Assembly (NCBI RefSeq): GCF_016950255.1
Contig: NZ_JACGFN010000002.1
Location: 1-64,000 of the forward strand
Source: Pectobacterium brasiliense
GTDB taxonomy: Bacteria > Pseudomonadota > Gammaproteobacteria > Enterobacterales > Enterobacteriaceae
Length of the DNA stretch: 64,000 bases
Direction: 5' to 3'
A program made the position numbers and the translations under genes. Below are positions 2,747 through 22,112 of the stretch, one piece after another (position 1 is the stretch's first letter; the number at the start of each line of letters is the position of its first letter). The notes beneath the pieces are model-generated. The model made no database searches. It was given only the letters and a program-made list of their open reading frames with translations, and was not told where the DNA came from.

Positions 2747-2789
2747 AAAATAGCTAAATCACTTGTTATTTCCAATAAAGGTATTTGAT

Positions 2790-3817: not shown

Positions 3818-5680
3818 ATGATGTTAAATAAGCTTTCCATTTCACTGTCGCCGATAGTAAATGGTGTGCTGTCCTTTATTGATGTTATGCAACAGCATCA
3901 ATTGATGCTGGCGCTATTATCGGGCCTGACTCTGCCGTTTTTCGCTTCAATGAAAATCGACGATCGGCAGAAAGCCCCGTTATGGAAAAAGTTGATCATT
4001 ACTTTTTCCCTGCTGTGTTTCCTGTTTGGCACAGTCGGCCCCTTACTTATTAGCGTTTTCAGGTGGCTTTATAACGTTCGGATACTTACCCGCATTCCCA
4101 TTCTGGACTGGTCAATATTAATTATATTTACCGTGGCAGGGCTTATTCTCCATATTAGTCTGCGTCGGGCATTAACGCCTGAACTGGATAAAATAAAAAA
4201 ACGACTCATCAAAAAGACCAGTCTTGAACGGGAATTACGCACAGATGTACGCACGGTAAAATCCCTGCTGCCGGAAACGCTGCATTATAATCCGCTGGAT
4301 TATATCAACCTAAATAAGGGTATTTTTATCGGGATAGACCGTGATGAAAAACCGATGTATCTCCCGTTAAAAGACTGGCAAAGACAACATGCAGATATTA
4401 TCGGCACCACCGGAGCCGGTAAAGGTGTAGCAACCGGTATATTGCTTTACCAAAGTATCCTGGCTGGTGAAGGTGTATTTATTATGGACCCAAAGGATGA
4501 TGAATGGGCGACGCATCTTTATCGCAAGGCCTGCGAGGATGCAGGCAAACCCTTTGCCTTAATTGACCTGCGAAAAACGCAATACCAATTAAATCTGATT
4601 GAAAATATTACGCCTGACGAACTGGAGGAATTGTTTGTTGCGGGATTCAGCTTGGCGGAAAAAGGTCAGGAATCCGATTTTTATCGTATCGACGACCGAA
4701 AAGCGGCACGTATGGCGGCACAATTTGTCAGCAGTCATCCCTCTTCGACTATCCGCGATATTTATAACGGCGAATATGTTCAAGGTATCGCGGAGGATAT
4801 CAAAGCCTTTTTCGGCAAAATTGAAGAGCTGGCGTTGCTCAATGCCATCAACGCGCCGACAGGATTTTCACTCCAATCGGTTTTTGGTGAAGGTGGCTGC
4901 TGCTATATCATCGGCTCAATGCGCAATAGCAAGATTATCACCGCCCAGCGAATGCTGCTGGTACGACTTTACCAATTAGCAGAAAGGCGCGACCGGGTAA
5001 AAGAAACGCCCCGCCCCATAGCCATCTTTCTTGACGAACTGAAATACCATCTGTCAAAACCAGCGCTGGAGGGGTTAGGCGCAGCACGGGATAAAGGCGT
5101 ACATATCATCATGGCCCATCAGTCCGTCGCCGATTTGAAAGACTGCCCGGCGGATTTAAAAGGCGATGCTGTTGTCGGTGCAGTCGTTGAAAACGCTAAA
5201 TTCAAGCTGGTATACCGCGTTATGGACCCGGATACAGCGGAATGGGTAGCGAGAATGTCTGGCACCATCTTAGTGGATGATGAAATCCGCAAAGCCAAAA
5301 CTGATGCCGTACTGACGGAAACCATCGACGGTGAACGAACTATCAGACAGGCAGAGCGTTTCTTTATCGACAGCAATATGATCCTGAACCTGCCCGACTT
5401 TGTCAGCTTTATCTTTACGACGAGAACGCTTCCCTCCGCCTCACTGATTTCCCCCATTAAGGTACAAAAACGCGAACTGGAGATCTATTCCGTGTCTCCG
5501 GATATTGCCGCGTCGGCAGTACCGGCAAAAATCGCGCTGGACTTCGACGAGGAAGGAGCGACATCCGCTTCAACGACCAATGTCGCGGCAACCCAGCCTG
5601 ACCTTTTATTTGAAGGGGAAAGTAAATCAGCAAAACCGAGATCTGATGATGACGAAACACCGTCCTTGCTCAATTTTTAG
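3818..5680 (+). CDS. mobB: MobB-like type IV coupling protein (VirD4/TraG superfamily)
   Basis: About 620 aa. The start is ATG 3818 or the adjacent ATG 3821, both after a perfect AAAGGAGG at 3806-3813; an upstream in-frame TTG is less likely. The first 130 residues contain three hydrophobic helices, which anchor the protein in the inner membrane. Next comes a VirD4/TraG-type ATPase domain with Walker A GTTGAGKG, a VFIMDPKDDEW strand and Walker B IAIFLDELKYH, followed by an Asp/Glu-rich tail. The protein couples the relaxase-DNA complex to the VirB channel. It is 8 nt upstream of mobC, the MOBC-family arrangement of plasmid CloDF13 and of HPI/ICEKp1 elements. The GKG form of the P-loop is normal for TraG/VirD4 proteins. 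Confidence 0.88.
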   Translation: MMLNKLSISLSPIVNGVLSFIDVMQQHQLMLALLSGLTLPFFASMKIDDRQKAPLWKKLIITFSLLCFLFGTVGPLLISVFRWLYNVRILTRIPILDWSILIIFTVAGLILHISLRRALTPELDKIKKRLIKKTSLERELRTDVRTVKSLLPETLHYNPLDYINLNKGIFIGIDRDEKPMYLPLKDWQRQHADIIGTTGAGKGVATGILLYQSILAGEGVFIMDPKDDEWATHLYRKACEDAGKPFALIDLRKTQYQLNLIENITPDELEELFVAGFSLAEKGQESDFYRIDDRKAARMAAQFVSSHPSSTIRDIYNGEYVQGIAEDIKAFFGKIEELALLNAINAPTGFSLQSVFGEGGCCYIIGSMRNSKIITAQRMLLVRLYQLAERRDRVKETPRPIAIFLDELKYHLSKPALEGLGAARDKGVHIIMAHQSVADLKDCPADLKGDAVVGAVVENAKFKLVYRVMDPDTAEWVARMSGTILVDDEIRKAKTDAVLTETIDGERTIRQAERFFIDSNMILNLPDFVSFIFTTRTLPSASLISPIKVQKRELEIYSVSPDIAASAVPAKIALDFDEEGATSASTTNVAATQPDLLFEGESKSAKPRSDDDETPSLLNF

Positions 5681-5688
5681 GAGGCATA

Positions 5689-6435
5689 ATGCTTATCGCA
5701 ACGCATAGCGAGCGCACCGCCCGCAACAGCGAGAAGATAAAAAGGCTGCTGAATTTCCTGAAGGAAGAAACCTACAGCGACTTTAAAACGCTGATGCTGT
5801 TGTTTGGTTTCAGGGATCACAAATCGCTGTATACGCTGCTGACAAAAATTGAACGAATGGGGTTAATACAAAAGCATGTGTTTGAATCACGGACGATGAA
5901 AATGTCGTTGTGGGGCATAACCAGCGACGGACTGGCTATCGTTTTAACGCCGGACGACGGCATTTTCCCGGCACGCTTTGAACCGTCAAAAATCACTGGC
6001 TGGACGCTGGAGCACCACCTTGATAATCAGGTTGCTAGGCTCATCCTGGAGAAAAAAGGCGCATCCAGATGGGTAAACGGCGATCGCTCAACGTTCCTCA
6101 GCCAGTATCAGGTCAAACACCGTCCAGATGGACTCATCACACTCCCTGACGGACAGGTCATCGCAGTAGAAACCGAGCGCCGCCTGAAAACCAAAGCTCG
6201 CTACCAGACGATTATCGCCAGCCATTTGCTGGCCCGGACACAAAAGAACTGGATTTACGTCTTTTATATCGTACCGGACCTACAGAAAAAACGGGCGCTT
6301 GAACTGCTGTTTGGCAGCATCAAACACGTCATCATTAATCATCAACCTATCCCTCTGGAAGCACGTCACCGCAATGTTTTTCGTATTTATACTCTCGACG
6401 AGCTGCGACAACTGGAGCCGAGGCAATATTCATAA
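5689..6435 (+). CDS. mobC: MobC-like relaxase (MOBC family, Replic_Relax domain)
   Basis: This 248-aa protein follows mobB after 8 nt, with an AGGAGG site 5 nt before the ATG. Its N-terminal about 80 residues resemble a winged helix (SDFKTLMLLFGFRDHKSLYTLLTKIERMGLI). Its core has a PD-(D/E)xK-like signature: H144-RPDG148 followed by VETER with E161 and E163 and then K167. MOBC relaxases such as CloDF13 MobC and pAD1 TraX are described as related to restriction endonucleases rather than to HUH relaxases. It would nick oriT and start DNA transfer. No tyrosine-based HUH motif is visible, as expected for this family. The pairing with mobB and the adjacent oriT-like region strongly support the call. 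Confidence 0.85.
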   Translation: MLIATHSERTARNSEKIKRLLNFLKEETYSDFKTLMLLFGFRDHKSLYTLLTKIERMGLIQKHVFESRTMKMSLWGITSDGLAIVLTPDDGIFPARFEPSKITGWTLEHHLDNQVARLILEKKGASRWVNGDRSTFLSQYQVKHRPDGLITLPDGQVIAVETERRLKTKARYQTIIASHLLARTQKNWIYVFYIVPDLQKKRALELLFGSIKHVIINHQPIPLEARHRNVFRIYTLDELRQLEPRQYS

Positions 6436-6569: not shown

Positions 6570-7337
6570 ATGAAAGTCGCGGACAATAAAGATATCCCTT
6601 TACCTGGCAGCGTTGAAATCCAGCCTGAGTTTTGGCTTGTAATCGAAGATGTTGTGTCGAGGCTTACTCTTAGCTTTCATGAGATTATACATAGTATTTA
6701 CGTGTATGGCAGCGTGGCTGAAGGCAGAGCGAAGACAGGCAAGTCTGATTTGGATATGACAATTATTTTCAGGCAAAAACTCGCTCAAACGACTACAGAA
6801 CAACTTGCCAAAATTCACGCCGAGCTTGAAAGAAACAATTCTACAGTCAGTAAAATTGATTTTGATTGTGGGTTTCTGGAAGAGGTACTCTCCCAGGATA
6901 ATATACTGAGCTGGGGATACTGGCTTAAACATCATTGTCGTTGCGTTTATGGCGAGGACCTGAGCCAATATTTTCAGCCTTTTAAACCTTCAAGAGCTAT
7001 TGCGGTAGCCGTGAATGGTGACTTCCAGCAGGTACTGAGCAGGCTAATTACGCAAATGAAAATGTCATCTGACGTAATCAAAAAGCAGCAACTTCTTTGT
7101 TCGGCTGCGAGAAAGCTCATCAGATCAACCAATATTCTGCGCAATGAACAGGACGATGAGTGGCCTGATTCGCTCAACGAGCACCGCAACTGGTTCATTG
7201 CCCGTTACCCTTCTTTAGAAAAGGATATAGACGATCTAATGGCAATAGGTACCGGGGGCAGAGGAAACCTGAATGATTACGAAAAACGACTTATAACTTT
7301 TGCAAGTTGGCTTAACGCTGAGTTTCTCCGTTATTAA
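6570..7337 (+). CDS. Nucleotidyltransferase-domain protein (pol-beta superfamily)
   Basis: The 255-aa protein starts at ATG 6570 after AGGAG. It has the nucleotidyltransferase signature GSVAEGRAKTGKSDLDM: Gly47-Ser48 and metal-binding Asp60 and Asp62, with a plausible third carboxylate at Asp97 or Asp99 (KIDFDC). Such proteins transfer nucleotides to small molecules, tRNA or proteins; members include antibiotic adenylyltransferases and MNT antitoxin-like enzymes. The C-terminal half is helical (ITQMKMSSDVIKKQQLLCSAARKLIRS). It lies alone between mobC and a degraded small gene. It could be a resistance-type or defence-type enzyme; the substrate cannot be told from sequence. No HEPN partner is visible next to it. 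Confidence 0.6.
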   Translation: MKVADNKDIPLPGSVEIQPEFWLVIEDVVSRLTLSFHEIIHSIYVYGSVAEGRAKTGKSDLDMTIIFRQKLAQTTTEQLAKIHAELERNNSTVSKIDFDCGFLEEVLSQDNILSWGYWLKHHCRCVYGEDLSQYFQPFKPSRAIAVAVNGDFQQVLSRLITQMKMSSDVIKKQQLLCSAARKLIRSTNILRNEQDDEWPDSLNEHRNWFIARYPSLEKDIDDLMAIGTGGRGNLNDYEKRLITFASWLNAEFLRY

Positions 7338-7346
7338 CGTGTGAGG

Positions 7347-7580
7347 ATGTTGATTGCAACTCATCATCACAACAACAATGTCCGCTCCTGGCACACAGGG
7401 GATATCCAGGCCTCTTCGGCCACCGCCTGACGGGCTGCCAATTTCGCCCAGCGCAGGAGGAATTCACTCCCAGATTTCAGCAGGTATGAATTCAATGATG
7501 CATGTCCAGGTTGTGGCTATACAGAAAAATGTACAGTACAGCAGAGCGTATGGCTCAGCGATGATAAGGACCGTCCATGA
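7347..7580 (+). pseudogene. Small CxxC protein gene interrupted by an in-frame TGA
   Basis: A frame starting at ATG 7347 after GTGAGG would encode 77 residues ending at TGA 7578-7580, but it is broken by a TGA at 7428-7430 (codon 28). The part after the stop includes EFNDACPGCGYTEKC, a plausible zinc-binding Cys cluster, and it ends in ATGA overlap with the next gene. That coupling and the amino-acid-like composition suggest a real small gene that lost its frame by one substitution (for example CGA to TGA). I do not recognise the family. A sequencing error or stop readthrough remains possible. Confidence 0.45.
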
Positions 7581-8116
7581 AAGGCGTTAAGTTTCACCCG
7601 TATGTTGGAGATAAATACTATGACAGCCATTACGGTGTGCGTGTAATGGTACTCGGGGAGTCACATTATGGTGACAGGCAGGATATGGCACCTGATTTCA
7701 CGCAATACGTGGTTAAAGAGCATGCCCTGAAGCCCGGTCTTCCTTTTTTCAGTAAGCTGACCAATGTTCTGAGGGGTTGTACTGAATGCCCTTCGGAAGA
7801 AGAACGAAATGAAACCTGGCGGCATGTTGCCTTTTACAACTACATCCAGGAGTTTGTTGGTGAAGGGGCCCGAATTGCACCCACTCCGGATATGTGGACG
7901 TCGGCACAACTGCCGTTCATTGAAGTGGTGAAACAGCTGGAGCCGAACGTCATTCTGGTGCTCGGCATCCGGCTCTGGAACACAATGCCGGACCTGCCCC
8001 TCGAGTACCCCGTAGAATGGTGTAGCATCCTGCACCCCAGCAGCGGGATGACTTATGAGTCGGCTATTGCGGCTCTTACAGCATCGGTTAAGAAATCAGG
8101 CGGGTTTTTCCTGTAG
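7577..8116 (+). CDS. Uracil-DNA-glycosylase-like protein
   Basis: This 179-aa protein starts at ATG 7577 with AAGGA 6 nt upstream. It has a pattern reminiscent of the uracil-DNA glycosylase fold: strand VMVLGESHYG at residues 23-32 (motif I-like loop), FYNYIQ at about 87-92, strand VILVLGIRLW at about 125-134, and ILHPSSG at 151-157, matching the HPS motif II region. A canonical catalytic Asp of motif I is not evident, so glycosylase activity is not assured; many genomic-island proteins with this fold are uncharacterised. It overlaps the upstream broken gene by 4 nt, which implies a two-gene unit. DNA repair or nucleic-acid sensing is a guess. Confidence 0.5.
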   Translation: MKGVKFHPYVGDKYYDSHYGVRVMVLGESHYGDRQDMAPDFTQYVVKEHALKPGLPFFSKLTNVLRGCTECPSEEERNETWRHVAFYNYIQEFVGEGARIAPTPDMWTSAQLPFIEVVKQLEPNVILVLGIRLWNTMPDLPLEYPVEWCSILHPSSGMTYESAIAALTASVKKSGGFFL

Positions 8117-8461
8117 TAAAAATAACGGTGGGCGGTATATCTGGAGTTGCCCCTGGATATCTGGACGGGCCGCCCATACTGCCCATCAGCCAGATACTCT
8201 CGCCTCACATACTGAATGCCCGATACTTGACCGACAGCTACGAGTGATGAGCGCAAGTTCGCTTTCAGGGTAACCTAATCCACATGCTAGAGGATCTCTA
8301 AAAGAGAATGGTTCGTTTAAGCGGAATAATTACAGTGCATATTCTTGAAAAAGAATACAACATGTGTTTATTGCTGCAATTACTGCACTTATGATAAACG
8401 AAACCTTAGTAAACTAGCCATTTTTCAACTAACCCAAATAGTTTTTTTAGGAAATTTAAAA
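8117..8461. other. Intergenic region without a recognised gene
   Basis: These 345 bp hold no convincing gene. The last 150 bp before the next gene are A/T-rich and probably contain its promoter. A TTG-initiated extension of the downstream frame (from 8345) is open, but it encodes a Cys/Asn-rich stretch unlike a real N-terminus. Confidence 0.5.
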
Positions 8462-9463
8462 ATGAGTGACTTAAGCCCAACTCTTGCCTTTCGGACGAAA
8501 AGGGGTACCTTTGCTGGTCCGTTTTTAAATGAAGCTCAACTTACTGGGTTGCTGCGCCTCTACAGAGACCAGGTCTCTCCTTCTGGTGCGACGTTTCCGG
8601 ATCTGGCGCCGGTAATCTACAGCCTGGATAGACTCATTTCTGACGGGGTCGCTGAGCAGTCCAGACGTGCACAAGCGTTTTTTAGCCAGCAACAGGTGTT
8701 AGAGCAGGAACGTCAGCTTGCTAAAAGTTATGAGCTTCTCTTTGGACAGTGGAACTATGCAAGCTCCATTGTTGATCCAAAAAAGAAAGCAGATCAGTGG
8801 GATAAGGTGGTTGATAATGCCTGCGGCGTTCTTTATGACTTGCGTGAAGCGATGCCCCTCGAAAAATCAATAAGCCACTGGGGCAAAGATTTATCATACA
8901 AGATTCAGCAAATTGGGCGTATGTACACTGAAGCTTTATTGTTCATCATCTATGGCAGGGCATCGTATGAGCCTCTCTCGCTTGTTAATGATCCCCGGCC
9001 ACGGCAATATATTTGTGAAATTAAAGAAATAATTAGCTCTTATTTTGATGGTGAAAATAAAGCAAATCTGCTGTTAAGCGCAGCTTTACATAAGACAACA
9101 CACTACGAGAAGGTAGGCGTTCTGACAGGTTTTAACACTCAAACTGAAGCAGATGCTTTCTTATTCAAAAACATCAAAGCGATCAAACCTGTTCGCATAT
9201 CCGACCCAAACTCAATGATGGATTTTTACATGCCGGATGTGCAGGATGCGTACAGCCGAACTATCAGATCTGAACGTTATCCAGATAGGCAGTGGATGGT
9301 AGTTTGTGCCTTGTGGGATCTTCACCGACGAGTCAGCCAGCTTGAATATCTTCTTGATGCACTGGAAGAACAAGAGGCAGAGCCGGATAGAAAAGCCGCC
9401 TGTGAAACACAGGAAATTATCACAGCGGTACTCGAGGAAAGGTTTACTTTGCTTGATCGCTAG
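8462..9463 (+). CDS. Uncharacterised 333-aa protein
   Basis: I set the start at ATG 8462, preceded by TAGGAAAT at good distance. The first residues MSDLSPTLAFRTKRGTFAGP look like a genuine N-terminus, whereas the in-frame TTG at 8345 does not. The protein is soluble and mostly helical, with a glutamine- and arginine-rich middle (QSRRAQAFFSQQQVLEQERQ), a Trp-containing helix (FGQWNYASSIVDPKKKADQWDKV) and an acidic C-terminus (LDALEEQEAEPDRK). There is no signal peptide, no membrane segment and no nucleotide-binding motif. I do not recognise the family. It stands alone in the accessory zone of the ICE, where defence or stability genes are common, but function is unknown. Confidence 0.6.
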   Translation: MSDLSPTLAFRTKRGTFAGPFLNEAQLTGLLRLYRDQVSPSGATFPDLAPVIYSLDRLISDGVAEQSRRAQAFFSQQQVLEQERQLAKSYELLFGQWNYASSIVDPKKKADQWDKVVDNACGVLYDLREAMPLEKSISHWGKDLSYKIQQIGRMYTEALLFIIYGRASYEPLSLVNDPRPRQYICEIKEIISSYFDGENKANLLLSAALHKTTHYEKVGVLTGFNTQTEADAFLFKNIKAIKPVRISDPNSMMDFYMPDVQDAYSRTIRSERYPDRQWMVVCALWDLHRRVSQLEYLLDALEEQEAEPDRKAACETQEIITAVLEERFTLLDR

Positions 9464-10693: not shown

Positions 10694-11638
10694 TCAAATC
10701 TTATCCATCAGATAACGATGTGCTTTTGAGGCGGCGCTGGCCGCTTTGAAAACATAGCGCTTATCATTTTTCAGCGCCTGGAGCCATGAGGCAATATAGC
10801 TTTCATGCTGAACCTCTCCGATGATCCCCAGATCCGCCATCAGAAAAGCACTTCCCAGCTCCGCCACTAATTCCTCCTCCGCATAATCTGCACTGCCAAA
10901 CTTCCCTTTCATTTCACGGTTAAGTCGTTTTTTACCACCGCTCCAGTGAACCAGCTCATGTAGGCCAGTAGCATAGAAATTGGCTGCATCTGAAAACAGA
11001 TGGCGCTCCGGTAGCCAGACTTCATCGGTTGAGGGTCTGAAAAAGGCGTTTTGTCCTTTCTCAATGATGTTTGCGCCGCTCTTCTGGAACAGATTTTCAG
11101 CCTCCGGCAACGGGTCAAAGGTTGCTTCCGGGCTGACTGTTTCAGTTGTCAGAGGCAAGCCGTCAATTTGCTGAACGTTAAACACGTTGAAAGTTTTCAG
11201 CATCGGGATCTGGTCGATTTCACCGTCTTCGTTTTCTTTCTCTAAGGTTGTATAGAAAATTGCCGTCGTGCCGTGCTCGCCTTTGCGAACCTGCCCACCT
11301 ACTGCCTGCGCCTGTTTGTAGGTCATCCAGCGTGAATCACCGAAGCCCTGTTCTGATGCACTGCACCACAACAGCATGATATTCATTCCGCTATACGAGA
11401 TACCGGTTGCGAAGTTGGAAGGCAACCCAGACATGCCCGGCACTCGTTGCCACGGGCAAGACCACGGTTTTACACCAGCTTCAAGCGCGGTAATGATGCT
11501 GTCGGTGACGGTCTGGTAAATATCGGTTTTAGTTTTGGAAAATTTCGTTTTTGAGGAGCCTGACTGCTCCAGCGGGGATACGCTGGTCGCCGCTGCGGCG
11601 TTAGGGGCGCTAGTCTGGGTATGCAGGGAAATGGTCAT
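10694..11638 (-). CDS. ardC: ArdC-like antirestriction protein (ssDNA-binding domain plus zincin metallopeptidase)
   Basis: I choose ATG 11638 (314 aa), which has GGAG 8 nt upstream; a longer in-frame start at 11719 adds 27 unlikely residues. An N-terminal ssDNA-binding domain (about 35-160: DIYQTVTDSIITALEAG, CPWQR, MTYKQAQAVGGQVRKGEHG) is followed by a peptidase-like domain with HELVH, giving zinc ligands H227 and H231 and catalytic E228. ArdC proteins from conjugative plasmids protect incoming DNA from host restriction, as in pSA ArdC. Here it would help the ICE establish in a new host. It is monocistronic on the minus strand, with a hairpin just after its stop. Confidence 0.88.
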   Translation of the reverse strand: MTISLHTQTSAPNAAAATSVSPLEQSGSSKTKFSKTKTDIYQTVTDSIITALEAGVKPWSCPWQRVPGMSGLPSNFATGISYSGMNIMLLWCSASEQGFGDSRWMTYKQAQAVGGQVRKGEHGTTAIFYTTLEKENEDGEIDQIPMLKTFNVFNVQQIDGLPLTTETVSPEATFDPLPEAENLFQKSGANIIEKGQNAFFRPSTDEVWLPERHLFSDAANFYATGLHELVHWSGGKKRLNREMKGKFGSADYAEEELVAELGSAFLMADLGIIGEVQHESYIASWLQALKNDKRYVFKAASAASKAHRYLMDKI

Positions 11639-12269
11639 GGTTTTTTCTCCGTCAGTGGTGTGATTTTCGTCTTCGTATCGCCTGACGGTTCGCTTTTCCG
11701 GCATCGTTCCGGCACGCAAGGGCGCAGAATGCGTGCCATTTACCCTTGCGGGACGGGTTGTGTTGGGAAACGATTAACCGGAAGCTGATATGGGAACGGA
11801 AATCACGCCGGAGAAAAAACTGCCCCCTGCATAGACGGGCGTAGCGCCCATTGCTCTGTAGCGGTGAATGTCGATATAACGGAGAGCAGGTCACTAGTAC
11901 CTGCTAGTTGATTTGCTCAAAAGAGGCATTATTGTCCCTAGAGAGCATTCAGTCTAATATAGGCTTCATTAAATAAATCGAACTTTCAGTGGCAAAGCAG
12001 TGATTCAAAATGATCAATTGGGAAACATATAATCACGTGCTTCGTCAATGGAGCCTGTTGACAATCTGAGGCCTCAACGACGATACCTTTGCCCCACGTG
12101 AAGATGAAAGCAATGAGGAAAGTCTCTGGCGGGCTACAGCGAGAGGTAAAAAAACTGAGAGGGAAATCAGCGTATGCCCCACAGCCGACACCTAGTAGTA
12201 GACACGGATTGTACACGAACATATCACCAAATGGCATAATGGATACACATGCATTGCCGAGGCTGATGA
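11639..12269. other. Non-coding or degraded stretch upstream of the defence island
   Basis: About 630 bp without a gene I can support. Frames on both strands (for example minus 11652-11894 and 11986-12237) have atypical composition and no ribosome site. The ardC promoter should lie in the first 150 bp. Base composition becomes more A/T-rich from here on, which marks the transition to the lower-GC defence island. Confidence 0.4.
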
Positions 12270-12512
12270 ACTATACATGTGGACATAAGATCAGCATTGA
12301 GGGGCGACATCTACGATATGGGTTACTTCCATAACGGTCTGAAGGGTAAGAACAACTGTCTGTCATTCCGCAGCTCTATCGGAGGGTGATTAGTATCTAG
12401 AAAAGTGCTCGATGGCATGCGAGCGGTTGATAGAAACGCTGTGGAAACGCTAATCACAGGCATTCAACCAGCTGAAATAGAGAAGGTTAGGCTGCAAAAA
12501 TATATCGGTTAA
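12270..12512 (+). pseudogene. Decayed reading-frame remnant upstream of the kinase gene
   Basis: One frame stays coding-like across an internal TGA at 12387-12389: a first part containing GDIYDMGYFHNGLKGKN, then a second containing NAVETLITGIQPAEIEK that ends at TAA 12510-12512. There is no good start codon. I do not recognise the family. It is probably what remains of a gene displaced when the neighbouring island was acquired. Confidence 0.25.
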
Positions 12513-12600
12513 ACGCTGTTGCTGCAATGTTGCTCAAGAACATCCACTTTGCAGCAGCATTCTGATCAGAAAATTAAAACAACTGATAAAGGAGTAATTT

Positions 12601-14961
12601 TTGTTTAGGATCACTGCACGCACTGTCTTAGAGTTGGGTTCAGAGCTGATTAGCTCTGATATCATTGCTTTCTACGAACTCATAAAAAACGGCTTTGATG
12701 CCCAGACCAAATCTGGTGTCGAGATAAGATTCGATATTCCATTGTCGCAAAAGTCATATCAGCGATTGTACCAACTGATAACTGAAGACTGTGATATTAC
12801 CAACGTTAAATCACATATTATTTCATCATTAGACACCAGCGCCAGTGAAAAATCTCGCAATGGCTTTAGCAGCCTAATTGAGAGAGCAATTAATTTTGTG
12901 GAACTCAGAAAATTATTGATTGAAGCCCAAGGTCGTTATAACACAATTACTGTCTCTGACACTGGTAGTGGAATGTCGTTAGATGACCTCAACCATAATT
13001 TTCTCGTCATAGGCACACCATCACGAAAACATGAAGTTGAAGCGGCCATGCAGCGGGGAGATAAGGAAGCACCTTATTTAGGAGAAAAAGGAATCGGCCG
13101 GTTGTCGGCTATGCGTCTTGGAGAAGGCTTGCGAGTTGAAACTGCTCGAGAATCTGACCCAAAACTAAACATACTTGAGATAGATTGGCGCGCTTTTGCA
13201 GATGTCGATGCAATGCTTGATCAAATACTAGTTAATCCGATAGCTGGCCCTGACAAACCAAGCGAAAACTGGTCTGGTACATCAGTAATTATTAGCAATC
13301 TAAGCGAGAATTGGACAAAAAAACGTGTCGAAGATATGGCGGAATATGAGTTCGCTCGACTTACTGATCCATTTTCAGATGCTGGACTCAGGCCTCGAAT
13401 AGCTATTTTTTGGAATTCAGAAAGAAAGTCCATCCCCATAATGCCTTCAGCCCTGCTTTCTTCCGCGCATGCTCGTGTTGAAGCTAAATATGAAGTCATT
13501 GATGGTTCTCCTTCACTTACTTGTACAGTAGAAGCTCTAGATCTTGGTTTCGACCATCCAAAAGAACGCGAGAAGACAACTCTTACAGTTGAAGACTTGC
13601 AAAGTGCAATTATTGGCCGAGAAGCACATATTGATGATAGTGCCCTCAGCACCGTGGGCTCATTTTCGTTCGAGGCGTACTGGTACAACCGTAGGAGGTT
13701 AACTCGCGTCGATGCTATAGGCGAGCAACGTGCAGTACGTGAATTACAGGAAAAATGGTCGGGAATTATGCTATTCAGAGACCGCTTTCGTGTTTTCCCG
13801 TATGGTGAAGATGAAGACGACTGGCTTGAGTTAGATCGAAGAGCGTTACGGCGTTCCGGATACACTCTCAATAAAACTCAATTTATTGGTAGAGTGATGA
13901 TCTCACGTACTGGAAACCCAACATTGGTAGATCAGACTAACCGTGAAGGTCTCCGCATCACTCCAGAACAAAGAGTTTTCCTCGAAGTAATTCGCTATGT
14001 CGTACAAGATCGACTTGGCACTTTTATGCAGGATGTGGAACGTCAATATAAGAATAAAAAAGTCGATCTTTCTGATGCCCAAACGCAGGTTTCGAAATTA
14101 GAAAGTAGGGCTAAGAATGCTATTCGTCAGTTAAAACGGTTAACCCCATCAGAAGGAAACGAAGCTATTGAAGATCTTCAGCAAACTTTATTTGAGTTCT
14201 CTGAGTTTGCTGCGAATGCCCGCCAACGCATTACTGAAGTTGAACAAGAAAGCAGACAGATGGTAGAAATGGCTGGAGTTGGGCTCATGGTGGAAGTAGT
14301 AGCACACGAACTTGCACGTGCATCCGAGAATGCATTAAAAGAACTCGACCTCCTTCATGCTAAAGATATGCCAGAAGATTTGCGTGCCCATTTTAAAAAC
14401 CTTCAAGCTGAACTAAAAAGTGTAAGTAAAAGAGTTAGAGTACTAGATCCAATGAGTGTCTCAGGTCGGCAACGAATGGAGGCATTCAAACTTGACGAAC
14501 TTATTAGTGATATAATTGAAGGACATCGAGCGCAGTTCTCACGGCATAATATTCATATAATAGCCGATCTTCCTAAAAATTCCATTCGTATAAGAGCAGT
14601 AAAAGGAATGATTGTACAGATTTTAGAGAACTTGATCTCAAACTCAGTATATTGGCTAGATATGAAAGCAGAGCGTGAAAGAAGCTTCCGTGCTGAGATA
14701 AAAATCACATTAGAAAGTAGTCCTCCCACTATTACCTTTGAAGATAACGGTCGTGGAATTTCCCCGGATAACCGAGAACAAGTGTTTAAGGCTTTCTTTT
14801 CTCTCAAAGACACACGTCGCCGTCGTGGTCTTGGCCTTTTTATCGCCCGCGAGGCAGCTCAATATAATGGCGGAACACTTACTCTGGCTGAAGCAACTAA
14901 CTCTGAAACTGGACGGCTTCACCGTTTTATTCTTGAACTTCCTGAAGGAGCACAACTTTGA
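12601..14961 (+). CDS. Dual-GHKL ATPase: MORC/Hsp90-like module fused to a histidine-kinase-like module
   Basis: 786 aa. The start is TTG 12601 with GGAG 6 nt upstream. Residues 1-180 form a GHKL ATPase of MutL/Hsp90/MORC type: N box E26LIKN30, G1 motif D120TGSG, G2 motif LGEKGIGRLSAMRLG from residue 160. A middle region (about 200-480) resembles the transducer part of such ATPases. A coiled coil follows at about 480-560 (VERQYKNKKVDLSDAQTQVSKLE). The C-terminal part looks like a histidine kinase: H-box VVAHELARASENALKEL with H569, N box ILENLISNS, G1 DNGRGIS, G2 RRGLGLFIAREAAQ. There is no membrane segment. It overlaps the receiver gene by 4 nt (TTGA). It is probably a cytoplasmic sensor/kinase of a defence module; the stimulus is unknown. 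Confidence 0.7.
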   Translation: MFRITARTVLELGSELISSDIIAFYELIKNGFDAQTKSGVEIRFDIPLSQKSYQRLYQLITEDCDITNVKSHIISSLDTSASEKSRNGFSSLIERAINFVELRKLLIEAQGRYNTITVSDTGSGMSLDDLNHNFLVIGTPSRKHEVEAAMQRGDKEAPYLGEKGIGRLSAMRLGEGLRVETARESDPKLNILEIDWRAFADVDAMLDQILVNPIAGPDKPSENWSGTSVIISNLSENWTKKRVEDMAEYEFARLTDPFSDAGLRPRIAIFWNSERKSIPIMPSALLSSAHARVEAKYEVIDGSPSLTCTVEALDLGFDHPKEREKTTLTVEDLQSAIIGREAHIDDSALSTVGSFSFEAYWYNRRRLTRVDAIGEQRAVRELQEKWSGIMLFRDRFRVFPYGEDEDDWLELDRRALRRSGYTLNKTQFIGRVMISRTGNPTLVDQTNREGLRITPEQRVFLEVIRYVVQDRLGTFMQDVERQYKNKKVDLSDAQTQVSKLESRAKNAIRQLKRLTPSEGNEAIEDLQQTLFEFSEFAANARQRITEVEQESRQMVEMAGVGLMVEVVAHELARASENALKELDLLHAKDMPEDLRAHFKNLQAELKSVSKRVRVLDPMSVSGRQRMEAFKLDELISDIIEGHRAQFSRHNIHIIADLPKNSIRIRAVKGMIVQILENLISNSVYWLDMKAERERSFRAEIKITLESSPPTITFEDNGRGISPDNREQVFKAFFSLKDTRRRRGLGLFIAREAAQYNGGTLTLAEATNSETGRLHRFILELPEGAQL

Positions 14962-16958
14962 ATCTTGTAGATTTACTTGCTGAGCGTGGTATACGAACGG
15001 CGTTAGTTGTTGATGATGTATATGATGAAGTACCTACAGCCTCTGACATTGACCCTGCTAATGATGCTTGGCCAAATTTTAATGATGATCTGACTCCAGA
15101 ACAGAGACAACTAATCATTGATAAATACCCCATGGCAGCTCAATTACACTTTGATCAATGTATTATAGATGATAAATACGTTGCAACAATCTGGCAAATA
15201 CATGATGAATTGGGTGACGCAGCAGCGTCACTTTTTGAGAGATATATAGCTGATCAAAAAGCAGATAGAAATTATGTTAACATAATTGAGAAACGGCTAA
15301 AATCTCTTGGCTTGACTGTAAATACAGCTGGTCGTAATTTTACAGCAGCAGCGCAAGAGGTTGACCTAATTATTATTGATTTGTTTTTTGACAAAGCGCA
15401 AGATCCCTCCCTGCTCGACAGCTCAAAAAAAAGCCTTCGTGATGCGTTACAATTACGAATTGATAGACCTCCATTAGTAATCCTTATGTCAAGAAGCCCA
15501 CGTCTGGAAGCCAAACGAGATGAGTTTCGTGATGATGTTCTTCTTCTTGACTCGGGATTCCGCATTTTAAAAAAAGAAGATCTTGAGAATACAAATCGTC
15601 TCGAGCTTCAGCTTGAACGCTTGGCAGAGAATTGTTCAGATTCAAGGGTTTTAGCAAAATTATTATATTCACTTGAAGAAGGAGTAAAACAAGGGGCAGA
15701 CAGAACCCTACAGTTACTCCGACGGCTACGCCTTTCAGATATTGGGCAGATACAGCAATTATTACTTAATGCAGAAGGACAGCCTGTAGGAAGCTATCTT
15801 GTTGACGTGTTTGATCATGTATTAAAACATGAAATCGAGCGCGAGATTGGCATTATTGATGCAGCACAAGCCCTAAATAATTTTTCAGCAGCTAAATATC
15901 CGACACCTTATGTCTCAGGATCTGTGGACCTACAAGAGTTAGTACAACGCTTACTAACACAAAATGAGCACAGATTAAAGTTACCAGGTTCAGTTGCTGC
16001 ATCTGTAGCCTTTGGAGACATTCTGAGAATTAAACCAGATGCTAATGCTGAGCGTCTTAAAAATGAAATTCTTGTAGATCTCACTCCCGAAAATGTTGCT
16101 CTTGTATTGACACCTGCATGTGATATACAGCGCGGCGCAGCGCCAAGAATACTCTTACTCATTGGTTCGATTAAACAGCTGGGTGTTAAAGATTGGACTT
16201 ATGGGGATGATGCTAAAACATCAGCGATACGAATTGACAACCAACTATGTTGGATAAAATGGAATTTAAAACATATTGATACAGTATCTCTTCAACAGCT
16301 AGACAAGGCTATCAATTCTCAAGATTTTTATTTAGCAGGCCGTTTGCGAGAAGGCCATGCTTTAGAGTTACAACAGCGTTTACTTTCAGGGTTGGGAAGA
16401 GTTGGGCAAATGGCTATATTGCCTGCTACATTTCCAGTAGAACTAGATCTATTTTACGCTGATCTCGATGGAAAGCTTTTGAGTTTAAATATTGAAGGAT
16501 TAACTGATGGGGCCGTATGCTTCGTTGGCAGGGAACCTAAAGGTGGTCAAAGCTTACGTCTTGTAATGACTGAAATGATTGTTGATGGCATTCTCTCAGA
16601 GTTAGAAAAAATAGATGAAAATCAAGTTTCAGAACGTGCTCGTCAAGCCTTTAAGCATGTAAAATCCTCCTCAGACTTACAGAGAATGATGACCCAAGGT
16701 ATTGATTTAAAAGGGGTAAGCGATAAATCATGGAAAGAGATCGACTCTGAAACAGGGGCAAACAATAGCATACCTAAAATGGGTTTAATAGCTTGGAATT
16801 TTGCTCCCACAGAAGAGGCCTTACCTAACAAAATATTAAGTAAAGCAGGTATAGTTTTCTTGATTCGCGATATCGAAAATCAAGAAGCTCCAGGTCTTGG
16901 TGATGCAATCCGCGCCGGTTTAATTACTCCTTCTCCCATATCAGATACATCAAATTAA
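14958..16958 (+). CDS. Large receiver-domain protein, partner of the dual-GHKL kinase
   Basis: 666 aa. The start is TTG 14958, with AAGGAG 7 nt upstream, overlapping the kinase stop. The N-terminal about 210 residues look like a response-regulator receiver with all key residues: acidic pair D19-D20 (ALVVDDVYDE), phosphoacceptor D141 (LIIIDLFF), S179 (VILMSRS) and K205/K206 (FRILKKEDL). About 110 extra residues sit between the first and third strands, far more than in a CheY-like receiver. The remaining about 450 residues match no output domain I recognise; there is no HTH, nuclease or NTPase motif. Phosphorylation from H569 of the neighbour is a natural hypothesis. It ends convergently to sspD. 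Confidence 0.65.
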   Translation: MNLVDLLAERGIRTALVVDDVYDEVPTASDIDPANDAWPNFNDDLTPEQRQLIIDKYPMAAQLHFDQCIIDDKYVATIWQIHDELGDAAASLFERYIADQKADRNYVNIIEKRLKSLGLTVNTAGRNFTAAAQEVDLIIIDLFFDKAQDPSLLDSSKKSLRDALQLRIDRPPLVILMSRSPRLEAKRDEFRDDVLLLDSGFRILKKEDLENTNRLELQLERLAENCSDSRVLAKLLYSLEEGVKQGADRTLQLLRRLRLSDIGQIQQLLLNAEGQPVGSYLVDVFDHVLKHEIEREIGIIDAAQALNNFSAAKYPTPYVSGSVDLQELVQRLLTQNEHRLKLPGSVAASVAFGDILRIKPDANAERLKNEILVDLTPENVALVLTPACDIQRGAAPRILLLIGSIKQLGVKDWTYGDDAKTSAIRIDNQLCWIKWNLKHIDTVSLQQLDKAINSQDFYLAGRLREGHALELQQRLLSGLGRVGQMAILPATFPVELDLFYADLDGKLLSLNIEGLTDGAVCFVGREPKGGQSLRLVMTEMIVDGILSELEKIDENQVSERARQAFKHVKSSSDLQRMMTQGIDLKGVSDKSWKEIDSETGANNSIPKMGLIAWNFAPTEEALPNKILSKAGIVFLIRDIENQEAPGLGDAIRAGLITPSPISDTSN

Positions 16959-16960
16959 AA

Positions 16961-16990
16961 ATCATGCGGTGTCTAAAGACACCGCATGAT
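16961..16990. terminator. Terminator between the kinase/receiver operon and sspBCD
   Basis: ATCATGCGGTGTCT at 16961-16974 pairs perfectly with AGACACCGCATGAT at 16977-16990. Read on the minus strand the hairpin is followed by TTTTTAATTTG, so it should end the sspBCD transcript. It lies 3 nt after the receiver gene stop and may also slow the opposing transcript. Confidence 0.8.
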
Positions 16991-17011
16991 AAAAGTTAAT
17001 ATTTTCGAATG

Positions 17012-17854
17012 TTATTTGTGACAAATGTTACATGAACCATTTCCCTCATCAATCCCATACACGTCATCAATATCTTCAGGATTGTCTTTTGTCGGCCTCA
17101 ATACATTGATAGGGATACTTCTTCTCATCCTATCTTTTCTAATTTGATAATCCTTTTTAATCTGCTCTATTCGTTCAGGTTGTTCTAGCTGTACTAAAGA
17201 CTCGCCCTTAGACCATGTAAAAGGCGAACCATGATCAAGAGAGTCTTTTTCAAGAGCCTTAGCAGCTTCAAATGCTTCAGGGTGCCTTTCTTTCAACCTC
17301 ACCCATTCTATTTTTTGCTGAAAAAAGCAAAAAGTACATCCACTGCGCGAACGCCATTCATAATATTTTGGATAACCGAGTCCTGATGATTCCAGAATAT
17401 CAATAACCCCAGGTTTATCTATACCAACCTCACGGAAAGGTAATTTTACATGCAGGTTAGAAGATTTAGAGGTATAGCCTTCTCGATAATCTTCATCCGC
17501 TCGTATTGCAACATATGATGTCACGTCATCCCCGGCTGCGAGCCAAGGCCTAATCCATTCTTCAAATGGCAATAGCTTTAGCTGTCTGGTACACCATCGA
17601 GTCTGAGGGCTGGGTAGAAAATGGTTGTATTGCTTCAGCCAGAATCTAAAATCTCGACGCGGATTTAGACGAACAATTGGCTTTCCTAAGTAGCCCTCAA
17701 GTCGCCCGAGGAATTCATACACCTCAGGTAGTTCCTCACCTGTATCAGTGAAAAAATAATCTATATCGAGATGGGGACAGGCATCACGCATATACACTGC
17801 CAGCGCAGCGCTATCCTTACCTCCTGACAATCCTAAAACATGTCGTTCAGCCAT
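17012..17854 (-). CDS. sspD: SspD-like phosphorothioation sulfurtransferase (PAPS-reductase family)
   Basis: The 280-aa protein starts HVLGLSGGKDSAALAVYM. The PP-loop SGGKDS at residues 10-15 is diagnostic of PAPS-reductase/ATP-pyrophosphatase enzymes such as DndC and SspD, which activate DNA and deliver sulfur to its backbone. Cysteines are clustered: CTRQLK, SGCTFCF and a C-terminal GSCNICHK, suitable for persulfide handling or metal binding. The ATG directly abuts the sspC stop, with a GGGGGAG ribosome site inside sspC. It is the last gene of sspB-sspC-sspD. DndC-type is the alternative, but DUF4007 as partner and the absence of dndB/D/E genes favour the Ssp system. Confidence 0.8.
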   Translation of the reverse strand: MAERHVLGLSGGKDSAALAVYMRDACPHLDIDYFFTDTGEELPEVYEFLGRLEGYLGKPIVRLNPRRDFRFWLKQYNHFLPSPQTRWCTRQLKLLPFEEWIRPWLAAGDDVTSYVAIRADEDYREGYTSKSSNLHVKLPFREVGIDKPGVIDILESSGLGYPKYYEWRSRSGCTFCFFQQKIEWVRLKERHPEAFEAAKALEKDSLDHGSPFTWSKGESLVQLEQPERIEQIKKDYQIRKDRMRRSIPINVLRPTKDNPEDIDDVYGIDEGNGSCNICHK

Positions 17855-20800
17855 CTACTCCCCCTTTTCACTGACAACAAGCTCCATACCTACCTTGGCA
17901 ATAATAGCCAGGGCTACTTCAGTGTTTAGATTCTGGTTTTGCAATATTGAAACAATCTCTTTAAATTTTGATTGTATAGTGTCCTGATGGTGTTCCGAAA
18001 TTGCGAAGGAACGAGAAACAGTTACAGTTTCAGAGCCGGTTCCCAGAACCAATGCAATTGCTTCACTATGTGATTCTCTTCCTTGGACAGATGCAAATGC
18101 TTCTGCCTCTCGAAAACGTCGGGCTAATTTACTTAGCTCTAATATCGCAGCATCAATATGACGGTCAACCCATCCTTTTGGTGGAGTCTCAACAGCAAAA
18201 CTCACCAAACCTTCGATAGATGCTATATCATTCTCAAAATTGGCTAAACGTCCAGCAAAGGCATCTAGTCTTATATCCCCTAAAATACCAGATACAGCAC
18301 TAGCCCTAACCTTCAGAGACTGGATATCATTAGAGTTAACATCTAATGCCAAGAAAAGTTTCTCTTTTACTTTTGATAATTCTTTTTCATAGGCATAGAA
18401 TAATTCTTTAATTATTGGCCTTAAAACTTCTATATAACTTTTTCCATCCGAAACCTCGAGTAAGGTTACCAAATCAACAAAAAGTACCTTGTGTGGATCA
18501 TTAGCTTTCAAAAGCATATCGCGAACAGATCTTGCAACAGAGCTAATTTTATGCGTTTTTCTAGTCCAATCAGGTAAGTCATAAACCATGCCGACCAGAC
18601 CTCTTGCAGCATCAAGAGGGTCGATGCTAGTCCTATTGTTACACACCTCGCTCAATAGATTTGATATACCTTCTAAAATCTCGTTCTTGTTCTTATCGAG
18701 AGCAACCCATCGCAATGAGAACCGAGATGGTGCTTGTAAACACTCGTCAATATCTACATCTTCAAGATATGGCATAAACATGTCATCTTTATATATTGCA
18801 ACCGTAGATTTATGAGCTAATACAAATGCAATTAAAATGACTGGTAATAATCCTTGCTTAATACCGAAAGGAGGTAATGACCAAAACTCATAGATTTTAT
18901 CTATAGAAATTTTGCTATCAACATCGGTGAATAATGCTTGTGTTGCATTCCACAAACCATTCAAATTACTAGCCGAGCCTTTTTCCGGAGAAAGAAACGA
19001 TAACTCTCCATCTTTATTTTTACGGTGTAAGCCAGTTTGGCTTATGAGAGTATCATAAAGCCCTCTCTCTGCAGGGTATCCAGTGAATCCAACGAAATCT
19101 TCTTTTTCATGCTGAATCATTGCATGTAATAATAAACGTCGAGCCTTAACACTGCTGCTAGACAGATTATCTCTATTCACCAGTTCGCTATAAATACGAG
19201 GCGAATAGTGATACAGCTTGTCTGCGAAATCAGAGGCTAGTATAGCAACTTTTTTACCTTCAATTGGTTTATCATTTAATCCATCATACCAATAGGTTTG
19301 CAACAAAGCAGACTGAAGTTGATGTTCAAGATCTGCACTTGTTGCCGACAATAAAGCATGAACTTCTCGGCGAGCAATGCGGTCACCTTCTAATGAAGTG
19401 TAATTCTTAATATTTTCAAGAACTACAAGTTTTTCTGCTAACGAATTAATACTGTTAAAGTTTTCTGGTATGCCAATAATGACAGGGAAAGGAGAAAATC
19501 GAGAAAACTCTTTTGCTTTTTCTCTTGCCTTATCTTCGCCAACACCACGATTTGGTATAGCAAGAATAAAACAACCGAGCTCACCTCTTAACGGATTATA
19601 GTTATTAGCGTACTTCTCAATTTGTTCAAAATCGCAAAGAATAACTTCCATCCACCTCATAGTGCCTGTTTTATGATAGTGCCTTTTAGCAACAACAGGG
19701 TGTAATCCCATGAGTTTTGATAATTTCTGGTAGTTGATACCAGGGAATTTTGCCATTTCTTGTGAAATAGCATTATCAATATCAAAGTCACTGCCTTCAA
19801 ATACAGACCATGTATCCAAATAACTTTTGAATAAAATAACCTTATACGAAGCTAACTCATTTAATGCTTTAATTAATTCATCGCTTTTTTTCTCAGGAAA
19901 CAAGGTCCCAAGAACTTTAGCATTTGCTACTAAGCCGGAACCATTTCTGAACAGATCTATAATAGCAATCGATTTAATCAAATCTACCAATAATATATTG
20001 GAGGTCTTGGATTCAGTTCTCTCAACCGCATCAACAGCTTGCGCCCAGCGATGTCCATCAGAAGATGCTAAAATACTAGGTTCAAGATTAGCTCGCAAGT
20101 AGTCCCAATAATTACTCGCCCCATAATTTGAAAACTTTTCTGAATTGGTAGTTTTTAGATAATAAGAAAAACCAGATGGTTCTACTGAAGAAATAAAACC
20201 AAATATACTACGTTCATTCTGTCCAAATTGTCTTTTCGAAATTGGACCAAGTAACATTGCCATAACAGGGTGCAATGGCCAACACTTTTCTAATGAAGCG
20301 GAAAATTGTTCTCTAATATTCGTTCTTTTATATCTTACAATATCTGTCACGGTATTTGAGGCATCAGATATCCATGTCGGATACTCTTCCGCTTGTATTG
20401 CTTTACTAAGTAACTCAACAATTTCATCACTAGCAGTGATAAATGGAAGATCAATATATCGACCTTGAACTTTAGACCAATCATCTCTCGTATTTACGCC
20501 TAGTCTCATAGCATACTGAGAAAACGACTGATGCAGTATTCCAATAATTACTAATTTTCCCTCTGAGCGTGCGGCAGCTTCTGCAAGCTCCTGGAAGAAG
20601 AATACATCATCTCCAATATCTAGTGCTGCGGCTTCAAGGTACTTACCCATTTCATCGATTAAGATGATTACTCCATCATCGACTTGCTTCGAGGCAAGGT
20701 TAAGTAATTCATCTATTAATTCAGAAGGCGATATTTTTTTACTATTTTTCCTGCCTAGAGATTTATTTAGCGCAGCAGAAAGGTCTAAAACCACACTCCC

Positions 20801-21178
20801 ACGTTTCCCGACAATAGGAAGAATATCCCAACCATTTTTTACTGAAAATGCTTCTTCAAAACCATTAATTGACTCTGCATTTAAAACGCTACGAGCCTGA
20901 TTTCTTACTTTCTTATTTGAATGCAAAGCACTTCCTAGGACAACAGCAAGAGAAGATTTCCCCCCGCCAAATGGCCCAGTTATAGTAAAACTACGCTGAT
21001 TTGTACTTAATATTTGATTACATATATTCTCTATAACAGATGATGCTGTATTATGACAAAAATAACCGTTTAAGGCATCAGATTGCCCCATATCTAAATC
21101 GACCCGAATCGACCTTTGATATTGTGGAGATATGCTTACCACATCAGATAGCAGTTTTTGTGATATATTATTCGCCAT
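17855..21178 (-). CDS. sspC: SspC-like ATPase of the DNA phosphorothioation system
   Basis: This 1107-aa protein has a P-loop near its N-terminus: TITGPFGGGKSSLAVVLG with Walker A G68-PFGGG-K74-S75, and Walker B GVIILIDEMGKYLE with IILIDE at 171-176. The long remainder is helical with no other motif I recognise; a DndD-like SMC coiled coil is not obvious. SspC proteins are ATPases needed with SspB and SspD for single-strand phosphorothioation. The gene overlaps sspB by 11 nt and abuts sspD, so the three form one translation-coupled operon. Base composition is clearly more A/T-rich than in the vir and chromosomal genes, which points to separate acquisition. Confidence 0.75.
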   Translation of the reverse strand: MANNISQKLLSDVVSISPQYQRSIRVDLDMGQSDALNGYFCHNTASSVIENICNQILSTNQRSFTITGPFGGGKSSLAVVLGSALHSNKKVRNQARSVLNAESINGFEEAFSVKNGWDILPIVGKRGSVVLDLSAALNKSLGRKNSKKISPSELIDELLNLASKQVDDGVIILIDEMGKYLEAAALDIGDDVFFFQELAEAAARSEGKLVIIGILHQSFSQYAMRLGVNTRDDWSKVQGRYIDLPFITASDEIVELLSKAIQAEEYPTWISDASNTVTDIVRYKRTNIREQFSASLEKCWPLHPVMAMLLGPISKRQFGQNERSIFGFISSVEPSGFSYYLKTTNSEKFSNYGASNYWDYLRANLEPSILASSDGHRWAQAVDAVERTESKTSNILLVDLIKSIAIIDLFRNGSGLVANAKVLGTLFPEKKSDELIKALNELASYKVILFKSYLDTWSVFEGSDFDIDNAISQEMAKFPGINYQKLSKLMGLHPVVAKRHYHKTGTMRWMEVILCDFEQIEKYANNYNPLRGELGCFILAIPNRGVGEDKAREKAKEFSRFSPFPVIIGIPENFNSINSLAEKLVVLENIKNYTSLEGDRIARREVHALLSATSADLEHQLQSALLQTYWYDGLNDKPIEGKKVAILASDFADKLYHYSPRIYSELVNRDNLSSSSVKARRLLLHAMIQHEKEDFVGFTGYPAERGLYDTLISQTGLHRKNKDGELSFLSPEKGSASNLNGLWNATQALFTDVDSKISIDKIYEFWSLPPFGIKQGLLPVILIAFVLAHKSTVAIYKDDMFMPYLEDVDIDECLQAPSRFSLRWVALDKNKNEILEGISNLLSEVCNNRTSIDPLDAARGLVGMVYDLPDWTRKTHKISSVARSVRDMLLKANDPHKVLFVDLVTLLEVSDGKSYIEVLRPIIKELFYAYEKELSKVKEKLFLALDVNSNDIQSLKVRASAVSGILGDIRLDAFAGRLANFENDIASIEGLVSFAVETPPKGWVDRHIDAAILELSKLARRFREAEAFASVQGRESHSEAIALVLGTGSETVTVSRSFAISEHHQDTIQSKFKEIVSILQNQNLNTEVALAIIAKVGMELVVSEKGE

Positions 21179-22112
21179 ATGCCCACCTAATCATTTTGTC
21201 TTTAAAATTTTCTTGCTCTGTTTCTGTCAATACTTTTTTGTGTATTTGTCTCAATCCTGCCGAGTCAGTCCAGACCAATACTCCCTCTGTAAGATCAGAC
21301 AACTCGATTAAGTATTGGGCAACTGACTCTTCATCGAGTTTAAAAACTCTTCCTGGAGAACCTTCTGTATAAATTATGTTTTCAAAAGCTAAGGCACTCA
21401 AACCACCATCACTCTGTTCCCAAAAGTCCATCAATGCGAACGCGAATATTCCTTTGTGTAACGATGCTTTTGGTCCACGACGAAACGCATACTGCCCTTT
21501 ATGTATTTCCTGTAAAAGACCTATTTCACCGAGTAAGGGCTCAGCATAATCTTCAGGGGTCCCCCCCGAAGAGCGTGGCGCATAGCTACGCAAGCATACT
21601 TCCAAATCCCGCTCTAATGTTGCAGGTGAAAGACGATGCTGAGGAACAATCTCTTGAGCATAGTTAGCCAATACACCTTCTAAATCCTTACGCGTAAAAG
21701 CAGGCATCGTCACATGGTTGAAGAGCCAATACCAAGTTGTTGAACGCAAACACTTACCGGCAAGATGCCAGTGAATTAACCATGCAGTTGATGAATGTTC
21801 CGCATAAGGGTCTAATCCGTTATCGCTCAGGACCGATGAAGCTAGCTTTGTTAAAATAAATTCTTTTGTTGTTGCATCTTCAATGATCCCACAAGCCAGA
21901 GCCCAATGGCGGATTGAGCTCACCATGTTTTTACCTACGCCAAAAGTTGCGATAGCATCTTTGTCAGTAAATACCGATTTAGGTACTAATCCATCTTTAG
22001 TTGATTGATCTACAACCTTTTTTAACCACATTTGACGTAGGGGGAATGTCTCATGCCCGGAAAAATGAGCTGGAACTCTACGATTACTCTCTGAAGTACT
22101 TTGCATTATCAT
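21168..22112 (-). CDS. sspB: SspB-like DUF4007 protein (phosphorothioation nickase)
   Basis: The 314-aa protein has the DUF4007 signature near its start: PAHFSGHETFPLRQMWLKK at residues 14-32. It continues with FGVGKNMVSSIRHWALACGI and a winged-helix-like central part. In characterised Ssp systems the DUF4007 protein SspB is a DNA nicking enzyme that opens one strand for sulfur insertion. ATG 22112 and ATG 22106 are both possible; an AGG lies 8 nt before the second, so 22106 may be the true start. It is the first gene of the operon, with a palindrome 18 nt upstream and the ICE right end about 500 bp away. No cysteine desulfurase gene (sspA) accompanies it. Confidence 0.78.
   Translation of the reverse strand: MIMQSTSESNRRVPAHFSGHETFPLRQMWLKKVVDQSTKDGLVPKSVFTDKDAIATFGVGKNMVSSIRHWALACGIIEDATTKEFILTKLASSVLSDNGLDPYAEHSSTAWLIHWHLAGKCLRSTTWYWLFNHVTMPAFTRKDLEGVLANYAQEIVPQHRLSPATLERDLEVCLRSYAPRSSGGTPEDYAEPLLGEIGLLQEIHKGQYAFRRGPKASLHKGIFAFALMDFWEQSDGGLSALAFENIIYTEGSPGRVFKLDEESVAQYLIELSDLTEGVLVWTDSAGLRQIHKKVLTETEQENFKDKMIRWAYGE

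Follow-up and report, generated by a model that had tools for sequence, protein, structure and literature searches.

What does a histidine kinase with a receiver partner do beside genes for phosphorothioate (PT) modification of DNA? The question is raised by a locus of Pectobacterium brasiliense, contained in a stretch of 64,000 nucleotides (the window) with which contig C2 begins in a 4.88 Mb genome. Here sspB, sspC and sspD lie on the minus strand and face a coupled two-gene operon on the plus strand, which encodes a kinase with two GHKL domains (12601..14961) and a receiver protein (14958..16958). All five frames are open. This arrangement, which the original prediction had drawn from the letters alone, was confirmed by the open reading frames, PADLOC and Pfam. 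We favor the reading that the pair is a cytosolic phosphorelay module of Ssp PT systems with a phospho-gated second-line output, and assign it a probability of roughly 40%.

Linkage of the pair to Ssp systems

We scanned a species-genome collection once with a profile of the receiver, which yielded 21 loci (given below by locus number), and identified ssp genes at loci with profiles derived from the window sequence and annotated plasmid loci. In 20 of the 21 loci the retrieved sequence contains ssp genes or their remnants, and 16 of them have at least one of sspB, sspC and sspD. L020 and L025 have sspFGH genes, the latter also sspA, while L019 contains an SspE fragment and L027 ssp remnants. 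Relatives of the kinase were also found in 29 records of a plasmid collection. SspC is present, within about 12.2 kb, in all 16 records whose kinase aligns to 69% or more of the query at an identity of 28% or higher; these records include four from Acinetobacter baumannii and two copies of one Agrobacterium plasmid. None of the other 13 records (identity of about 27% or less, or a short piece) is among the 60 listed SspC records, the four unlisted ones of the 64 being left out of the cross-table. Twelve of the 16 loci were opened and all contained ssp genes; sspB, sspC or sspD was present in none of the seven weaker loci opened (L035, L036, L050-L053 and L056). Homologs of the pair are thus not found mostly away from ssp or dnd genes, and the predicted tie to Ssp is borne out in both collections.

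The gene order of individual loci shows the same linkage. In L007, from the Chloroflexota, the order is sspA-B-C-kinase-receiver-sspD-F-G-H, which places the pair inside the modification operon; PADLOC names SspF and SspH of this locus, and SspF, SspG and SspH of L003. In L031, from A. baumannii, a kinase of 28.8% identity and a 637-residue protein face sspD-C-B in the layout of the window. A maximum-likelihood tree of 38 kinases, from which L019, L026, L027 and the G-handle loci were left out, separated the 31 Ssp-linked kinases from the seven others with a branch support of 99/98. SspD was found in 10 of 369 gammaproteobacterial genomes, the window's own included, and two of these ten have the kinase: the window's own genome and another whose kinase frame is interrupted by a stop codon. 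A scan of viral contigs gave 27 pattern matches, none of them a relative, tblastn found no receiver in phages, and there was no near DNA match in E. coli genomes.

Several observations count against a strict linkage. The species-genome scan relied on two short exact peptide patterns and therefore sees close relatives best. L019 and L027 are broken copies, and L026, a contig of 5.5 kb, has no ssp gene. The receiver of L031 was missed by the receiver profile and was assigned by its position, its receiver residues (T for S178) and a TQPCDL motif; that of L033 has S instead of D19 in the alignment. Among the non-Ssp loci, L052 encodes a DUF262 protein with a weak resemblance to SspE (3e-12), and the order among the outgroup kinases, which have long branches, is unsure. 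Some association might also be expected if the pair were an independent module that happened to reside on the same islands as Ssp, since defence genes cluster. However, such clustering would hardly produce the counts in both collections when SspD itself is so rare, the position within the L007 operon and the split in the tree, and we regard an independent module as very improbable. Taken together, the comparisons of genes and neighborhoods strongly support a dedication of the kinase/receiver pair to sspBCD-type systems.

We then compared evolutionary distances for the 21 loci that have the complete set of five proteins, leaving out L010 and L011 as near-copies of L009; P0193 was left out of A7. 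Distances agree closely between kinase and receiver (rho 0.90) and among SspB, SspC and SspD (rho 0.84-0.87), and less so between these two blocks (rho 0.38-0.51), with permutation p values of 0.002 or less. Relative to the window, the Polaromonas locus L032 has an SspC of 51% and a kinase of 30% identity, and the Sphingomonas locus L008 an SspC of 33% and a kinase of 72% identity. Two co-varying blocks with weaker agreement between them show that the pair is a co-inherited unit that is exchanged between Ssp systems. Recombination of the two blocks against each other is also what an independent module would show.

Near-identical islands of ssp genes, SspE, kinase and receiver occur in three species of different genera (L009, L010 and L011), a sign of recent transfer. 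Clustering of the neighbors at 32 loci revealed no constant further effector gene beside the pair, none apart from ssp occurring in more than five loci. The commonest non-core neighbors were an integrase-like protein, SspE and a NB-ARC/TPR STAND protein, in five loci each, the last being classified from the Pfam matches of one member. A family of proteins of about 975-996 residues is encoded immediately after the receiver gene in L009, L010, L011, L012 and L017; the L011 member (12098-15088) contains NB-ARC/AAA_16 and TPR regions and is STAND-like, and the L009 member is cut by the contig end. A small XRE-type regulator adjoins sspA in L005 (13973-14254) and L006 (19899-20207), and members of a class I SAM methyltransferase family border the ssp loci of L006 (20344-21021), L008 and L023. 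In plasmid pUPO218 of Rhizorhabdus wittichii (L002, 6585-9380), an IS5-type transposase gene interrupts sspF, and the pair beside it is intact.

Architecture of the kinase and the receiver protein

The kinase starts with a TTG codon preceded by AGGAG. It consists of an N-terminal MORC/Hsp90-like GHKL-S5 ATPase, a coiled coil, a HEF_HK-like DHp region containing H569 and a C-terminal HATPase_c, so that HATPase_c_3, the H-box histidine and HATPase_c are all present in one protein. Its match to HEF_HK (PF19191) scores 16.2 bits, below the Pfam cut-off of 24.1. H569 is kept in all 38 aligned kinases. The 15 ATP-site residues that we checked are intact in 31/31 Ssp-linked kinases; one of the seven non-Ssp kinases has A in place of G717. 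The closest named relative, from Citrobacter koseri, is 99% identical. Among 398 Pseudomonadota genomes the kinase was found at E ≤ 1e-40 in at least one, the window's own, a lower bound given that at most two candidates were scored per genome.

The receiver protein begins with an expanded REC domain (residues 1-230) that carries the canonical phosphotransfer residues (D-D, D, T/S and K), followed by a helical linker. It has a long and conserved C-terminal output region of about 400 residues with a Cys-Asp motif. Within this region, residues 348-485, with a TPxCD motif, can tentatively be assigned to a MazF/PemK-like barrel, and a further alpha/beta region extends over residues 490-640. The likeness to MazF is weak by sequence when assessed by hhalign. 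The window's receiver protein matched neither Response_reg_2 (PF19192) nor PF02452, nor any other Pfam family, and PF02452 is absent from the 25 listed of the 26 Pfam families matched by any of 71 members (E ≤ 1). Foldseek comparisons of the receiver model gave no match below E 0.001 in the Protein Data Bank and none among viral models.

Receivers of the Ssp branch are 633-714 residues long (29 loci), and the receiver-side proteins of five of the seven non-Ssp loci are 209-439 residues long; the partners in L052 (598 residues) and L056 (a frame of 586 residues) are nearly as long as those of the Ssp branch. The Cys-Asp signature is also seen in the receiver-side proteins of the non-Ssp loci L035, L036, L052 and L053, which include restriction-modification (R-M) loci, and may therefore mark an output domain of the wider HEF_HK/Response_reg_2 family. 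The L052 protein that bears it is annotated as a cytochrome P450. In L050 and L051, the related kinases have receiver-only partners (226 and 209 residues) that lack the output region, and L051 adjoins HNH and N-6 DNA methylase genes.

These architectures suggest how a phosphorelay might work. The MORC-like N-terminal ATPase would clamp DNA or a DNA-bound SspBC complex and respond to infection or to a state of PT failure. In response, the C-terminal kinase core would phosphorylate its own H569, and the phosphoryl group would pass to D141 of the receiver. Phosphorylation of D141 may then free the C-terminal output region, with its putative MazF/PemK-like barrel and invariant Cys-Asp, which would arrest growth as a second line of defence. 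In this scheme, the sensing of DNA or PT state, the His-Asp transfer and the growth-arresting output are all inferred.

The pair beside known Ssp effectors

The ssp genes of the window form one operon on the minus strand and are clearly named by PADLOC and Pfam. SspD (17012..17854), which is PAPS-reductase-like and has the SGGKDS motif, matches PDLC02782 (9e-139); SspC (17855..21178), a BrxC-like AAA+ ATPase, matches PDLC02780 (E=0); and SspB (21168..22112) is a DUF4007 protein by both PADLOC and Pfam. The operon has no sspA, and an IscS above the curated cut-off is encoded in the genome. The gap of 53 bases between the convergent operons holds a 13-pair hairpin (16961..16990, minus strand) that resembles a terminator for the ssp genes, at the place where the original prediction had put its single terminator. 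The terminator scan did not call it on the plus strand, and as a class such sites are no commoner in the region than in shuffled sequence (6 against 8.2).

The absence of an SspE-like gene, as originally predicted, held across the genome: none was found with PF03235 (DUF262/GmrSD_N; 8 of 14 control genomes positive) or with PDLC02792, which was positive for the L010 and L015 genomes. SspG was not found with a model that detects it in the L012, L016 and L022 genomes. SspH was not found either, with one FtsK_SpoIIIE match over the cut-off and one weak match below it; the former, a 1192-residue open frame on another contig, is taken for the housekeeping FtsK, and SspF was not searched for alone. 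The kinase/receiver pair is the sole candidate PT-system output found in genomes such as this one.

This raises the possibility that the pair is itself the primary restriction effector where SspE or SspFGH is missing; the role first proposed for it was that of an effector or sensor arm. Besides the present genome, neither SspG nor SspE (by one SspE model) was found in those of L018, L021 and L028, which have the pair and sspBCD, or in the plasmid records of the pair-bearing loci L006, L031, L033, L034 and L054; the L017 genome lacks SspG, and its SspE-like sequence amounts to a match of 91 residues. In the available text of PMC8092258, 2,211 of 2,678 sspBCD loci have neither SspE nor SspFGH, and the authors ask about further restriction partners. 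Likewise, sspE is not alongside Ssp in 5,518 of 5,530 A. baumannii cases (PMC12421847), and the one locus opened from this species, L031, has the pair. On the other hand, the pair coexists with an intact SspE in the near-copies L009, L010 and L011 and in L015 (PADLOC 1e-278 for L015), and with SspFGH genes in L003, L004, L007, L012, L022, L023, L032 and L055, among others; in L016, SspG is present elsewhere in the genome. It is also no commoner where these effectors are missing: of the 60 listed SspC plasmid records, 32 have SspG or SspE and 28 have neither, and the pair occurs in 8 of each group (Fisher p 0.78). Frequency independent of SspG and SspE, together with coexistence, indicates that the pair does not fill a missing-nuclease slot. 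We thus rejected the role of a substitute and keep it only as an unlikely alternative.

Across loci, the pair is constantly accompanied by the modification genes and by no particular nuclease set, and its occurrence is independent of SspE and SspG. This could also point to a regulator: the kinase would sense PT or DNA state, and the phosphorylated receiver would bind SspB/SspC or nucleic acid and so adjust modification or the expression of ssp, without being toxic itself. The location of the pair within the L007 modification operon fits such a role, as does the wider family, which adjoins methylation-based R-M systems (PMC8011034, in its available text, and our L036 and L053). The RNA-binding regulators AmiR and EutV are among the structural matches over residues 1-291, though with root mean square deviations near 10 Å. 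Pfam recognized no DNA-binding output domain, which is a weak negative, and a protein that only counteracted SspBC would hardly need a conserved output region of 400 residues bearing a Cys-Asp motif. Moreover, the moderate agreement between the two blocks of proteins does not favor a tight specific interface. A regulatory role is consequently somewhat less probable than the phosphorelay with a second-line output.

The locus may also be a remnant that lost SspFGH and no longer works in defence. Relatives often have sspFGH beside the pair, and the window instead has a conjugation and ArdC region. Yet the conserved residues are kept in five open frames, and the layout without SspG or SspE recurs in plasmid records of A. 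baumannii, Ensifer, Methylorubrum and Rhizobium (L031, L006, L034 and L054), making decay quite improbable.

The genes to the left of the module (window 517-6435 and 10694-11719) encode TrbI, a VirB11-like ATPase, a coupling protein, MobC and an ArdC-like anti-restriction protein, and the genes to its right have a higher GC content, so the module looks imported. On the right, the island appears to end between 22.1 and 23.0 kb. Window 6570-9463 encodes a Pol-beta type nucleotidyltransferase, with weak MntA/ANT-like matches, then proteins of 179 and 372 residues that match no profile in Pfam, PADLOC or NCBIfam. No R-M gene was seen among the window's reading frames that were profile-scanned up to 25.5 kb, a scan that did not cover every frame and in which the contig begins with the window.

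Relation to described systems

In Detocs, a cytosolic phosphorelay gates an immune effector, and the third gene encodes a receiver joined to a nucleosidase effector. The working proposed for the pair is similar in its gating, but the pair has two genes and a MORC-like sensor and is tied to DNA modification; no nucleosidase family is among the listed Pfam matches of its proteins. It is thus not Detocs, and by PADLOC comparison it is not SspFGH. The SspABCD-SspE and SspABCD-SspFGH systems share with the window sspB, sspC and sspD, and IscS is able to act as the cysteine desulfurase, but neither system includes a kinase/receiver pair as described in the available text (PMC8092258).

The nearest published relatives are the HEF_HK (PF19191)/Response_reg_2 (PF19192) kinases and receivers, described in 2021 as a family beside type I and II R-M systems (PMC8011034). 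As far as the accessible parts of that paper go, the two sets share soluble proteins with the domain order HATPase_c_3 - DHp - HATPase_c, an adjacent receiver-like gene with canonical residues and a DNA-modification neighborhood. However, the published set is tied to R-M, and the Ssp branch falls on a separate side of the tree, has mostly longer receivers and includes a window receiver that escapes PF19192. The main text of PMC8011034 has no matches to phosphorothio, Ssp, Dnd, PAPS, DUF4007 or BREX. A 2025 study of A. baumannii (PMC12421847) notes a histidine-kinase two-component system near Ssp as a possible new variant; this agrees with the window in an Ssp without adjacent sspE and in the L031 layout, but the available text does not name the family, the receiver or its occurrence elsewhere.

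Other defence proteins are more distant. The paraMORC ATPases of R-M systems (PMC2292703) and VcSduA (PMC12137116), in the portions at hand, also have an N-terminal MORC-like GHKL ATPase, but theirs is fused to a nuclease, in contrast to the histidine-kinase core and separate receiver protein of the window. No such pair is mentioned in the accessible text of the Dnd/Ssp and BREX surveys PMC10853773 and PMC12839542, although PMC12839542 includes one histidine kinase as part of a Schlafen fusion. HATPase and REC are listed with other domains of predicted systems in a figure legend of PMC13092281. The claim that the system had not been described must therefore be narrowed. The wider family and the A. 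baumannii hint are in print, and the branch dedicated to phosphorothioation, with its output region, was not found in the openly licensed literature; nor did we find two-component signaling joined to DNA-backbone modification worked out there.

A broader proposal, which we consider doubtful as a whole, would make the pair a third Ssp output class. A MORC-type clamp would sense the state of DNA, either its phosphorothioation or an invasion, and His-Asp phosphotransfer would switch on a PemK-fold Cys-Asp effector. Such a class might be partnered with a sizeable fraction of orphan SspBCD systems, the dominant A. baumannii Ssp included, and a branch of a general family that watches both methyl- and sulphur-based DNA-modification systems.

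For some sspBCD systems without a known restriction partner, the pair is a testable candidate, and the residues to inactivate can be named exactly. Its layout is shared by the A. baumannii record L031, from a species in which Ssp occurs in 61.91% of the genomes analyzed and sspE is almost never alongside (PMC12421847, available text). If the proposed working is true, the pair would join two-component signaling to DNA-backbone modification.

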